This document shows positions 4,742 to 24,953 of a DNA stretch of 64,000 nt, piece after piece (positions within the stretch are counted from its first letter, which is position 1; every line of letters begins with the position of its first letter). The position numbers were made by a program, and so were the translations under genes. Location: contig JANXXU010000030.1 of assembly GCA_025350465.1 (NCBI GenBank), positions 62,001 to 126,000 on the forward strand. The letters run 5' to 3'. Below the pieces are notes generated by a model. That model did no database searches. It was not told the origin of the DNA and saw only the letters and a list, made by a program, of their open reading frames with translations. The stretch comes from Alphaproteobacteria bacterium. Lineage in GTDB: Bacteria; Pseudomonadota; Alphaproteobacteria; Micropepsales; Micropepsaceae.

Positions 4742-6133
4742 TCAAAAGTTGTGGGCGCCATGTGGTCCGATGGAAACCGTGTATTGCGCGACGAACTCGT
4801 TGTTCGGACGCAGGTCGGCTTCGTCATAGGTGTATTGCAGGCGGAAGCGGCCGAACTCGCTCGTGTCGTATTCGAGCATCGCGGTCGTCGCCTGGGGACT
4901 GTGGCCGAAGTCATCGAGCGTACTTCCGACGAGCGCAATCGGTACGTTGGCGGTCTGAAGCTCTGCGTAACGCACGCCGATGCGCCATTGCGGCATGAAT
5001 TGATAAGCGCCCTGCACGTAGAAGCCCGTCCTGTTGTAGTCGACAGGAACGCCGTTGAAGTCGCCCTGCTCGTGGCCGAAGAAATATTCGGCGTTGGCAA
5101 TCAGGTTCGTGACAGTCGGATTGCCGCCCGGCGCCCATTTGAAAACAAGGCTGGCGATGCCGAGATCGTCTGTTCCGGTGAACATATCGCCGCCCGTGTC
5201 GCGCTTGTCGGCCTTCGATCTCAGATACGAGAGGCCGGCGAGGAAGCTGCTCGAATCGTCGATGTCGCCGCCGCTGTGTACGTAGCCGGTCATCGTACCG
5301 ACGCCTTCGTTTGCGGCGCCACCAGCCGGAAACGCATCGCCGCGAAACGCCTCGGCGCCGAATTCGAGGAAGAAATCAGTTGGTGCAAGCCAACGCACCT
5401 GCACGCCGTCATCGCCGTATTGGTTGGCGAGCAGCACGCGATAGGGCAACGGCGCATCCTCGAAATCCCAAGCATGGGCGTGTTTTTCGTTGAGATAGCC
5501 GATGCCGGAGAAGAACCGGCCGGCGCGGGCCGTAAAACCGCCGGGCAGAGCCGTCGTTTGGATGTAGCCCTCTTCAACGGCAATCTGATCGTGATTGATC
5601 GTGACAATAAGGTTCGCCAGAAACTCGTGGTCGACGTTGGCGGTGATCGCAATCTCGGATTCGCCGAGCGAGAATCCACGGTCTGCCAATCCGGCGTCGC
5701 CCAGCGCAAACCCCGGAACGCGCGCCACGCTCGGATCATGTTCGAACGAGGAAAGCGAGCCGTTCAAGATGACGGAGATCGCGGGGTTGAATGCACCGGG
5801 CCCGGCCGGCGCACGCGGTGCAGCCGCTTGCGGCGGCGGAGGTGCCGCCGCCAACACGACTGGGGCCGGCTCGACTGTTGTAGCGGCCGTCGTGGTTGCG
5901 GCAGTGGCGGGTGTACGTTTGGCGGCCGCAGCCTTCGCGGCTTTGGCTTCAGCCTCGGCGACCCGCAAGCGCTTTTCGAGGCTGTCGATCTTGTGCACGT
6001 AGTCGGCGCGCATTTCTTTGATTTCGGCGCGGATGGTGCTCAGGTCTTCGTCGGATGCTGCAAGCGCGGGTGCGGCGGTGCCGAGCAGCAAGCCCGCGGC
6101 GACGGCGCCGACCGTGATTGACGAATGTCTCAT
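4742..6133 (-). CDS. outer-membrane beta-barrel porin of the zinc-uptake locus
   Basis: A 463-residue protein with a signal peptide (about residues 1-25, ending ALAA), a predicted coiled coil (residues 30-65, heptad-like Glu/Lys/Ala pattern), an Ala/Thr/Pro linker (66-115), then a long barrel of alternating amphipathic strands ending in Phe. The C-terminal Phe is typical of outer-membrane proteins. The barrel resembles porin-like proteins often encoded next to zinc ABC transporters in proteobacteria, and it lies 13 bases upstream of znuA on the same strand. It probably lets zinc or a zinc chelate cross the outer membrane. There is no TonB box or plug, so it is not a TonB-dependent receptor. 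The ATG at 6133 starts the signal peptide. Confidence 0.78.
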   Translation of the reverse strand: MRHSSITVGAVAAGLLLGTAAPALAASDEDLSTIRAEIKEMRADYVHKIDSLEKRLRVAEAEAKAAKAAAAKRTPATAATTTAATTVEPAPVVLAAAPPPPQAAAPRAPAGPGAFNPAISVILNGSLSSFEHDPSVARVPGFALGDAGLADRGFSLGESEIAITANVDHEFLANLIVTINHDQIAVEEGYIQTTALPGGFTARAGRFFSGIGYLNEKHAHAWDFEDAPLPYRVLLANQYGDDGVQVRWLAPTDFFLEFGAEAFRGDAFPAGGAANEGVGTMTGYVHSGGDIDDSSSFLAGLSYLRSKADKRDTGGDMFTGTDDLGIASLVFKWAPGGNPTVTNLIANAEYFFGHEQGDFNGVPVDYNRTGFYVQGAYQFMPQWRIGVRYAELQTANVPIALVGSTLDDFGHSPQATTAMLEYDTSEFGRFRLQYTYDEADLRPNNEFVAQYTVSIGPHGAHNF

Positions 6134-21765: not shown

Positions 21766-21813
21766 ATTGTCCTGATCAAAGCCCGTCCGCCGACGATGGG
21801 CCAGGCGCCGTTG

Positions 21814-21879
21814 CCTGGGAGCGCGGGCATCTTGCCCGCTTTCGGGAAAAAGAGCGGGCGGGACGCCCGCGCTCCCAGG
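21814..21879. repeat. 66-bp nested palindrome, REP-like element
   Basis: Outer arms CCTGGGAGCGCGGG (21814-21827) and CCCGCGCTCCCAGG (21866-21879) pair over 14 bases without mismatch. Inside are two smaller hairpins, GCGGGCA-TCT-TGCCCGC and GCGGGCG-GGA-CGCCCGC, around TTTCGGGAAAAAGA. The design resembles REP/BIME-type dispersed palindromes of other bacteria. It could fold as a four-way structure in RNA or DNA. Only one copy was seen in the window. Confidence 0.75.
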
Positions 21880-21918
21880 CTCCAGTTGCGAATGAGAATG
21901 GGACCCCCTTCTTTACCC

Positions 21919-21986
21919 GTTGCAGTGTTGCAAATGGCAGAACTGCGCCCTTCTTGACGTTGCAAACCCGTTGCACTGCCGTTGCA
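21919..21986. repeat. cluster of five GTTGCA hexamers
   Basis: GTTGCA begins at 21919, 21927, 21959, 21970 and 21981. The last three are spaced 11 bases apart, about one helical turn, and the first two are eight apart. This could be a cooperative protein-binding array or chance. Confidence 0.4.
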
Positions 21987-22332
21987 TTGTAACGCGTTCC
22001 TGCTCCGCGCCCGTTTCACCCGCGCCGACGCGTGCGCAGTTCGGGGCACACATCGCGTTTTCGGCCGCGACCGCCTTTAGGCATGGATGGACGATGTCAA
22101 AGAGTTGGCGACGCGGAAATCGACGCGATCGCGCACTAGAACAAATATAGAACAAAACTCCGGACCGCGCAAGCGAATTGCGCTTTCACATTGTCGGCGC
22201 TCGCCTGGATCGTTTGCGCGAAGCCGGCGTCGCATCGAAGGCTCGGTTTGCCGCGCCGCCGCCCGTCTTGTGCACCATGAACGTTTGCCAACGCCGGTGC
22301 CGTGCGCGGCCGCCGAAATAAGTATAGTGTCC

Positions 22333-22362
22333 CCGAAATACTCCGAAATACTCCGAAATACT
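22333..22362. repeat. three tandem copies of CCGAAATACT
   Basis: An exact 10-bp unit is repeated three times without interruption, ending nine bases before the cytochrome lipoprotein stop. The unit length is close to one turn of DNA. It may be a simple repeat prone to slippage. Confidence 0.8.
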
Positions 22363-22370
22363 CAACGAGC

Positions 22371-22925
22371 CTAGGACGGTGGCTTTTCTGATGGATCAAC
22401 CAACATCATTGATTGGTATGGTTCCGACGGCTTTTGGCCAGGCGGCAAGCTGACGTGAGCGGGCGCGCCCTTGGCCCCAAGCGAACGGATGTATCGGTAG
22501 ATGGCGCGCGAGTCGCGTTCATCGAACCGATTGACATTCATCCACGGCATTGGTGGCGAGTCTTTGCGCTCGCGCAGCATGATCACCCAGTCGTCCTCCG
22601 AGATAGCGTTCGTGACAAGTCGCAAGTTCGCGGAAAATGTCGTGCCCCAGTGGCCAACGTACCCTGCGCTGCGCCCCGTCAGCCAGTCGGCTTCCGGTGT
22701 CGCTCCTCTGCTTTCGCGATACCCCTCGGTGTGACAGTCGTTGCAGCCGCCGACCACCACTAGGTAGCGACCCGCATCGAGATCCGAGGCGGCAGCGACA
22801 TGCGGCGCTTCGGAAGTCTTCGGCCCCGCGGGAGAACACCCCGAGACAGCGGCGCAAGCGACCAGCAAGAAGAAAGTTGCGGCCGATCTGTTTGTTTTCC
22901 TCATGAGCGCAATAGATCGTGTCAT
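22371..22925 (-). CDS. monohaem cytochrome c lipoprotein
   Basis: A 184-residue protein with a lipoprotein signal (hydrophobic segment about 17-28, lipobox VSGC with Cys near residue 30), one haem motif CNDCH (about 61-65) and a helical C-terminal half containing MPWMNVNRFDERDSRAIYRYIRSLG, with Met as possible axial ligand. It resembles the single-haem cytochromes that partner alcohol or aldehyde dehydrogenases in the periplasm. No dehydrogenase gene is adjacent. An ATG at 22904 would give a shorter n-region; neither start has a strong ribosome-binding site. It lies in the accessory region between plsY and dprA. Confidence 0.8.
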   Translation of the reverse strand: MTRSIALMRKTNRSAATFFLLVACAAVSGCSPAGPKTSEAPHVAAASDLDAGRYLVVVGGCNDCHTEGYRESRGATPEADWLTGRSAGYVGHWGTTFSANLRLVTNAISEDDWVIMLRERKDSPPMPWMNVNRFDERDSRAIYRYIRSLGAKGAPAHVSLPPGQKPSEPYQSMMLVDPSEKPPS

Positions 22926-23172
22926 CTTGAGATTGTCACGTTGCTTGACGCCTACGATTTGTTCTACCGGTCGCAGAAGCGATATATGTGACTGAAGCTT
23001 GGTCTCGGTTCCGGATCGGCGCTCTATGCAGAGGTTTTTCCCAGCTGCTGCCTGGTGGCAAAGTCCGGCAACGGGAGTCAGGGCGGCCCGGTTTCTCGCC
23101 GACTAACTGTCTTCAATTCGCGCAACTATTAGTCCGACCTTTGCGCACGTACGACGATTTGGAGGAAGGGTC

Positions 23173-23637
23173 ATGTTCCGAACTATCGTGGTGTGCTGTG
23201 CGTCCGTTCTCGCCCTCGCCCTCGCTCCGATCGAAGCGGGCGCCGTCCCGGCATTGGCGCAGGTGAGCCAAGACTGGGCGCGCGAATGGCAGTCAAAGAA
23301 CCTCGACGCGGTGCTCGCGCTCTACACGCCCGACGCCGTGTTCATGGACAGCAACGGTTCGCGCGTCACAGGGCGACCGGCTTTGAAGCGGTTTTTCGCA
23401 ACGGTCCTCGAACAATATAGCGCGCAACCACAACTTCGCAGTATCGGCAACTTCGCCTCCGGCGACCTCGCTTACGATTGGGGCGACTACAGCGAAATCG
23501 TGACCCCGATTGCGAACCCCGCCGGCGCTCTGGAAACGCACGGCACCTATCTCGTCATCCTTCGGCGAATTGGAGGCCGGTGGAAGATCTCCGAACAAAT
23601 GTGGACGGGAGACAAGCCCGTTCCGGTCAAGAGATAG
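23173..23637 (+). CDS. secreted SnoaL-like/DUF4440 protein
   Basis: A 154-residue protein with a signal peptide (residues 1-27, ending GAVPALA or nearby) and an NTF2-like alpha+beta cone fold. The helix WAREWQSKNLDAVLALYTPDAVFMDSNG and the later WGDYSEIV, GTYLVILRRIGGRWKI and EQMW strands are typical of the SnoaL/DUF4440 group. These proteins include steroid isomerases, polyketide cyclases and many of unknown role; catalysis cannot be predicted. A strong GAGGAAGG sits before the ATG. It is flanked by the divergent cytochrome lipoprotein and the repeat-protein gene. Confidence 0.8.
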   Translation: MFRTIVVCCASVLALALAPIEAGAVPALAQVSQDWAREWQSKNLDAVLALYTPDAVFMDSNGSRVTGRPALKRFFATVLEQYSAQPQLRSIGNFASGDLAYDWGDYSEIVTPIANPAGALETHGTYLVILRRIGGRWKISEQMWTGDKPVPVKR

Positions 23638-23890
23638 GGTGGAGGGCGCGCTCGCAGATGGCGACCGCACAAGCCGAATAGCGCAGTGTCCAACAGGCTA
23701 TGTCGTTGTTTGACCGACACCATTTCCGACGCGACGACCGCGACAGATAGGATGAATCTTCCGCCCGCATCTTCGCCCCACTAAGCTCGACGGACCAATG
23801 CAAGCGTCCACAACCCGTCGAAGATCATTGCATCGCGCTCGTTGGGTATTAGTATCCGGCCGCGTCGTGAGGGGTTCTCGAACAACGAAT

Positions 23891-23913
23891 GCGCGGACTG
23901 ACTTGGTCCGCGC
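23891..23913 (+). promoter_or_regulatory. 5' leader hairpin of the repeat-protein gene
   Basis: Perfect eight-base arms GCGCGGAC (23891-23898) and GTCCGCGC (23906-23913) enclose TGACTTG. The hairpin ends six bases before the GGAGGAGG ribosome-binding site of the gene at 23935. It may control translation, stabilise the mRNA or end upstream transcription. Confidence 0.5.
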
Positions 23914-23934
23914 CGGTAATGGAGGAGGCCTACG

Positions 23935-24549
23935 ATGAAATATCTTTCCATTGGCGCTGCAGTTGCGATTTTCGCAGCGTTGCTGCTCGCATCGCCCGGT
24001 GCCTGGGCTAAGGATTGCAGAGAAAACACGGGCGGCGCCTGTGTCGGTCATTGGAGGTGCGATAGCAGCGATGCCCAAAAGGTTTGCACGGACGTCATCA
24101 AGAGGTCCGGCATGGAATGCGTCTGCCAAAGGGCGACGAGCCGAACCATCGATGGCGATGACGGTCGCGATCGTTGGAGTGTCTATCAATGGCGCGAGTA
24201 CTGCCGGCATCATCGCGACGAGCGCCGGTGCGAGCGTTATTTAGACGATGGCGACCACGACCGCGATCAATGGGGCGAGGACAGGTGGCGCGAATGGTGC
24301 CGTCATCACCGCGACGAAGATCGCCGCTGCGAACGCTATCGCGACGATGGCGACCACGACCGGGATCAATGGGGCGAGGACCGGTGGCGCGAATGGTGCC
24401 GTCATCATCGCGACGAAGATCGCCGCTGTGAACGTCATCGCGACGACGGCGACGAAGATCGCAGCGGCTGGAGCGACCATCAATGGCGCGAATGGTGCCG
24501 TGATCACCGCAGTGAACATGGTCTGTGCGCTCGCTGGAACAGGGACTAG
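23935..24549 (+). CDS. secreted protein of 33-residue Cys/Trp/His/Asp/Arg repeats
   Basis: A 204-residue protein with a signal peptide (residues 1-25, ending GAWA). Residues 27-65 form a small cysteine-rich region with six Cys (CRENTGGAC, WRC, KVC, MECVC). Residues 81-204 are four tandem repeats of about 33 residues: unit 1 at 81-112, unit 2 at 113-145, unit 3 at 146-178 and a partial unit 4 at 179-204. Each begins with Trp, has two Cys ten residues apart (as in WREWCRHHRDEDRRCER) and, in the complete units, ends in an Asp-rich stretch (DDGDHDRDQ). The pattern suggests disulfide- or metal-stabilised extracellular modules, perhaps calcium- or zinc-binding. GGAGGAGG precedes the ATG. No family was recognised. 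Confidence 0.75.
   Translation: MKYLSIGAAVAIFAALLLASPGAWAKDCRENTGGACVGHWRCDSSDAQKVCTDVIKRSGMECVCQRATSRTIDGDDGRDRWSVYQWREYCRHHRDERRCERYLDDGDHDRDQWGEDRWREWCRHHRDEDRRCERYRDDGDHDRDQWGEDRWREWCRHHRDEDRRCERHRDDGDEDRSGWSDHQWREWCRDHRSEHGLCARWNRD
24175..24546 (+). repeat. 99-bp in-frame tandem repeat
   Basis: The repeat units lie at 24175-24270 (96 bp), 24271-24369, 24370-24468 and 24469-24546 (partial). The second and third units are nearly identical at the base level, while the first and last diverge more. This indicates recent duplication of a coding module, with copy number likely to vary between strains. Confidence 0.85.
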
Positions 24550-24556
24550 ACCGGCA

Positions 24557-24578
24557 GCACGGCGCTAGATCGCCGTGC
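24557..24578 (+). terminator. hairpin after the repeat-protein stop
   Basis: Arms GCACGGCG (24557-24564) and CGCCGTGC (24571-24578) pair perfectly around CTAGAT, eight bases past the stop codon. There is no T tract, so it may act as an mRNA 3' stabiliser or an inefficient terminator together with the next hairpin. Confidence 0.5.
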
Positions 24579-24597
24579 AATCGCCGGCGGCCTGACG

Positions 24598-24630
24598 GAG
24601 GCGAGGTCCGACACAAACGGGCCTCGCCTC
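24598..24630 (+). terminator. second GC-rich hairpin, possible terminator
   Basis: Arms GAGGCGAGG (24598-24606) and CCTCGCCTC (24622-24630) are a perfect nine-base inverted repeat, with a further CC/GG pairing inside. It follows the first hairpin by 19 bases and also lacks a T run. Confidence 0.5.
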
Positions 24631-24851
24631 TCAGTGTCGCAGCCCCGACGCGAGGGGACGCTTGTACGAGACCAATTTCACGAGTCGCGGCGTTGGCGGC
24701 CAACCAGGATCGCAAAGGGTCTCAAGGCAAAGATCCTTTGGGTGTCACGCCGATGAGCCTGAGGGCCATCGTGTATTGGCGGCATGATCCATATCAAAGC
24801 GCGTTCGTTTCCAATGGGTTAACCTTCCACCAGTTTGAGGAAGGAACAGCC

Positions 24852-24953
24852 ATGGACTTGGGAAGCCAAATCTTTTTGGGTGCTGTCATCGCCGCGATGG
24901 TCGTTTTTGCGGCGACGCTCTTTGCGGTCAGCCTGATCGCGCCTGGTCGCTGA
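24852..24953 (+). CDS. 33-residue single-pass membrane peptide
   Basis: A small protein consisting of a short polar start (MDLGSQ), one transmembrane helix (about residues 7-29) and a Pro-Gly-Arg end. A strong GAGGAAGGA lies eight bases before the ATG, which is unlikely by chance. It converges on plsY with six bases between. The function is unknown; small peptides of this kind often associate with larger membrane complexes. It is below the usual length cut-off and easily missed. Confidence 0.55.
   Translation: MDLGSQIFLGAVIAAMVVFAATLFAVSLIAPGR

Follow-up and report, generated by a model that had tools for sequence, protein, structure and literature searches.

The array of Cys- and Trp-rich repeats at positions 23935 to 24549 of the window (the whole 64,000-nucleotide stretch of alphaproteobacterial DNA that was analysed) raises the question of whether it encodes a genuine exported protein, whether its module belongs to a described family, and what the product may do for the cell. 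The open reading frame listing gives 204 amino acids from an ATG start on the plus strand, with a GGAGG ribosome-binding site just upstream, which confirms the gene proposed by an earlier sequence-only reading. A promoter scan returned nothing on the plus strand upstream of the gene. Its third-position GC (0.64) lies below that of the neighbouring genes (0.69-0.85), as expected of biased composition or of recent arrival. The features of the gene are as follows.

23920 to 23927, plus strand: ribosome-binding site GGAGGAGG, read from the sequence
23935 to 24549, plus strand: gene of the predicted secreted Cys/Trp repeat protein, from the open reading frame listing and in-frame purifying selection
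23935 to 24009, plus strand: predicted signal peptide, residues 1-25, cut presumed after AWA, read from the sequence
24010 to 24129, plus strand: six-Cys head, residues 26-65, from sequence and model
24172 to 24270, plus strand: module 1, RWSVYQWREYCRHHRDERRCERYLDDGDHDRDQ, Cys 90/99
24249 to 24446, plus strand: best-matching pair of 99-bp units, 93/99 identical, by sequence comparison
24271 to 24369, plus strand: module 2, WGEDRWREWCRHHRDEDRRCERYRDDGDHDRDQ, Cys 122/132
24370 to 24468, plus strand: module 3, WGEDRWREWCRHHRDEDRRCERHRDDGDEDRSG, Cys 155/165
24469 to 24546, plus strand: module 4, WSDHQWREWCRDHRSEHGLCARWNRD, truncated and without the acidic tail, Cys 188/198

The predicted product opens with a Sec-type signal peptide, MKYLSIGAAVAIFAALLLASPGAWA, cut before KD at an AxA-type site; peptide and cleavage site are clear by eye both here and in a paralog of the same genome, so that the earlier description of the protein as secreted holds as a prediction. 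The signal peptide is followed by the head, whose six Cys (28, 36, 42, 51, 62, and 64) were correctly recognised from the sequence, then by a short linker and four tandem modules of about 33 amino acids with the core WRE[WY]C-x8-9-C[EA]R, an Asp-rich linker standing after modules 1-3. The head was modelled by AlphaFold as beta-alpha-beta at low confidence, and searches of the genus and class yielded no convincing relative of it; five candidate matches (L101-L105) were opened and rejected as chance. Within the 179-residue mature part there are 13 His, 32 Asp, and 14 Cys, and its composition (49% D/E/K/R, 8% I/L/V/M/A, pI 5.9) is strongly biased toward charge.

The four tandem units and the 99-bp period were both recovered, the latter by TRF (2.7-3.3 copies, score 395), and the array is far beyond chance. 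The modules had been described as nearly identical, which is true of units 2 and 3 in one register only: 24249-24347 and 24348-24446 agree at 93/99 positions, with four of the six differences at third codon positions, whereas the same two units agree at 83/99 in the WGEDRW protein register, and units 1 and 4 are just 49-67% identical to the other units. Identity at a 99-bp shift falls off on both sides of the best pair, the pattern expected if one unit was duplicated in tandem and the copies then diverged somewhat. The proposal that the module is being duplicated now is unsupported because this best pair has already diverged by 6%, and one strain was compared.

Further insight comes from contig C7 of the same genome, where a second module gene was found on the minus strand (L002 1297-1884, from the likely ATG). 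Its product carries the signal peptide MMKASTVAKLCGAVLGIGMLLSPAFG and five modules of the DRWREFCRHHHDDRYDRRCERYR type, with Cys spaced twelve residues apart, and it lacks the six-Cys head, so the module rather than the head defines the family. The two Cys had been placed ten residues apart, which fits units 2-4 of the window protein but not unit 1 (nine) or the paralog; the spacing is not fixed. In the alignment of all nine modules of the two genes, W, R, C, C, and R are invariant, and the conserved heart of the module, read from this alignment, is W-R-x-aromatic-C ... C-x-R. The acidic DDGDHDRDQ-like end is indeed present after modules 1-3 of the window protein, but it is variable between the paralog modules, being shortened or absent (shortened between modules 2-3 and 3-4), and therefore does not belong to this heart. 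A third, decayed copy lies on contig C43 (L071 about 4975-5060; C43:77978-78047) as a non-coding one-module relic directly after a uspA-like stress gene. It is 79% identical over 70 bp of DNA (E 6e-10) and closest to module 3, and TAG replaces its Trp codon. Two other DNA matches in the genome (L078 and L079) lie inside unrelated genes and were rejected.

Evidence of selection was obtained by comparing the modules codon by codon. Across 16 core codons of the nine modules, the annotated frame gave pS 0.67 and pN 0.19. The pattern by which the modules were picked demands W, R, an aromatic, two Cys, and another R, which depresses pN to some degree, even though it excluded no module. This pS/pN ratio was unmatched in any other frame, and overlapping reverse-strand and shifted reading frames were rejected as the selected frame. 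In three sets of four non-overlapping module pairs, the amino-acid differences numbered 17, 23, and 14; for each set, all of 5000 randomisations that redistributed its nucleotide changes gave more (means 31.5, 32.6, and 24.0). The changes between modules are thus mostly synonymous, which indicates purifying selection on the protein, and an array beyond chance together with in-frame conservation against the paralog identifies the window product, at the sequence level, as a real protein.

As the earlier reading had supposed, no recognised family accommodates it. The window protein matched no Pfam or NCBIfam family at E up to 1, CHCH profiles included, and no PHROGs or PADLOC family of phage or defence proteins at E up to 0.1; a PDB sequence search gave no credible match, a phmmer match to Gam (E 0.14) being ignored. 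The C7 paralog produced only sub-threshold noise against Pfam (E 0.19 or worse). A profile built from the module found this genome alone among 96 genomes of the order, 385 of the class, and 398 of the phylum, a result to be read with the limited sensitivity of profiles of short, composition-biased modules. Two weak matches in the order (L023 and L024) and one further match at E 7e-4 (L099) were opened and rejected as chance. The GTDB genome contigs gave no match with the protein or with the module profile, and no homolog was seen in plasmids, phages, or viral contigs. The full protein had no relative in any of 60 further genomes, of which ten belong to the genus; several of these genus assemblies are incomplete, and the negative result carries most weight for the five with a completeness of 90% or more. 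Genus matches of the head plus module 1 were a RecR-like zinc-finger region (L009) and a CVNH-like protein (L010), both due to chance, and the remainder were out-of-frame or unrelated reading frames and were rejected. A literature search found no description of the module. From these sequence comparisons, the module family appears to be undescribed in the libraries searched.

Known systems offer partial likenesses. Twin CX9C (CHCH) proteins are helical-hairpin proteins of mitochondria, and modules 2-4 of the window protein likewise carry Cys-x9-Cys on a predicted helix; the strict twin spacing is nevertheless not found, as no module carries more than one CX9C and about 22 residues separate each Cys pair from the next, and the series runs CX8C, CX9C, CX9C, CX9C here and CX11C in the paralog, leaving 8 or 11 residues between Cys in the other modules. 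The window protein is moreover bacterial and predicted to be secreted, with no Pfam match and no fold match. EF-hand and thrombospondin type 3 repeats are calcium-binding Asp-rich repeats, which the alternating Asp of DDGDHDRD resembles, but DGDHDRDQWGED has no Gly 6, hydrophobic 8, or Glu 12, the EF-hand loop DxDxDG-x-[ILV]-x3-E was not found in the acidic end by eye or by profile, and the acidic stretch is not common to all modules. The secreted cysteine-rich repeat proteins called SCREPs (PMC6262176) are also described as secreted chains of disulfide-rich modules; they are likened here by description rather than by sequence, and the present modules differ in having only two Cys and a very high charge.

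In two single-sequence AlphaFold runs, the cores of modules 2 and 3 were predicted as helices of about 23 residues, with pLDDT of up to 87-88 in these blocks, but both models were weak overall (mean pLDDT 63 and 69). In Foldseek the full model had a meaningless best E of 0.66, and the repeat region had no match. On the modelled helix, Trp, the aromatic, Cys, His, Cys, and Tyr appear by eye to lie roughly on one face. Two Cys placed ten residues apart on one straight helix cannot be bridged by a disulfide, and in the modelled arrangement the bond would have to join neighbouring helices, whereas a kinked module could close a disulfide within itself. The Cys spacings of 9, 10, and 12, together with a Pro in the first paralog module, suggest such a kink or loop. 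The Cys count is even (14 in the window protein, two per module in both genes), which, as composition goes, suits disulfides. Since half of the mature protein is charged and aliphatic residues are few, an ordinary hydrophobic core is unlikely, and stability would have to come from disulfides and aromatic packing.

The genomic setting was examined by tblastn synteny. Six genus relatives carry dprA with a gene for a conserved 33-amino-acid membrane peptide directly after it, then plsY, pyrC, and pyrB, whereas in this genome dprA and the peptide gene are separated by a block of about 3.1 kb.

21766 to 24851, no strand assigned: block in this genome only, against six genus relatives, by tblastn synteny
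21813 to 21880, no strand assigned: 28-bp inverted repeat, 89% complementary, from a repeat search, near the dprA-side edge of the block

The block holds a cytochrome c-like gene (Pfam Cytochrom_C below the cut-off; genus relatives only 31-35% identical), a SnoaL/DUF4440 gene, and the repeat gene, and its contents name no pathway; none of the neighbouring genes points to a role. The inverted repeat is GC-rich with a 12-nt loop, resembles a dispersed REP-like element, and has just a weak second match within the window. An intergenic part of the block contains CCGAAATACT three times in tandem (22333-22363). Beyond it, at 24852-24953 on the plus strand, lies the single-span membrane peptide of 33 amino acids, MDLGSQIFLGAVIAAMVVFAATLFAVSLIAPGR, which is 42-70% identical in the six relatives, always between dprA and plsY, and is likely an unannotated small protein. 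Beside the C7 paralog, a convergent reading frame of 201 amino acids (L002 630-1235, plus strand) resembles a secreted protein or lipoprotein; it has no Pfam match, and of 11 genus genomes searched this one alone carries it. The block and this genome-only neighbour together place both module genes beside or within lineage-specific DNA.

Taken as an exported scaffold or protectant, the window protein receives what we infer to be its most economical reading, with metal buffering next. It would first be exported via Sec; each module would form a short amphipathic helix or helical hairpin with Trp, the aromatic, and Cys on one face; and disulfides, within a module or between neighbours, would fix the array, while flexible Asp-rich linkers would keep the helices apart. 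The product would be a polyampholyte, compact and very hydrophilic, located in the periplasm or at the cell surface. It would most probably serve as a scaffold or protectant of the envelope, and its His and Asp might buffer metals as a side activity. We hold this assignment, a lineage-restricted secreted structural protein of disulfide-fixed helical modules, only tentatively. Were metal binding the main function, the His, Asp, and perhaps Cys of the modules would bind Zn, Ni, Cu, or Ca, and capacity would grow with the number of modules. The many His, Asp, and Cys residues, the CRHH and DGDHDRD stretches, and an RND efflux-type gene near the paralog are consistent with such a use, yet the His positions vary (CRHH, CRDH, CERN, CSHD) while Trp, Arg, and Cys are constant, and both the shortened acidic stretches in the paralog and the lack of an EF-hand pattern speak against it; we judge it unlikely.

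Two other explanations draw on the restricted distribution of the gene. A secreted antagonism or interaction protein, such as an antibacterial or an inhibitor built of disulfide-stabilised helical hairpins, would be small, Cys-rich, and patchy in occurrence, as this protein is within its genome-unique block, but there is no immunity-like neighbour, the phage and defence libraries are silent, and the repeats are conserved rather than diversified, which makes this explanation quite improbable. The array might instead be a young or dispensable gene that simply expands and decays with no selected role, a view that its occurrence in one sampled genome and the stop codon in the C43 relic would favour; the strong synonymous excess, between modules and between two unlinked genes, counts against it and renders it improbable.

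Lineage-restricted secreted repeat proteins are a familiar kind, and the module is new to the databases searched. It comes close to an even chance, though still short of one, that it represents a new one-lineage family of disulfide-stabilised helical repeats, whose exported proteins use a building block of about 25 residues, in variable number (four, five, and one relic), for a specific binding or structural role. If its role is generic envelope protection only, it is one orphan among many. If real, it is a small orphan module that a single genome shows at several stages, as a four-copy, a five-copy, and a decayed single form, with selection on the protein, and it would offer a compact natural disulfide-helix building block as well as a tractable example of the origin of lineage-restricted secreted repeat proteins.
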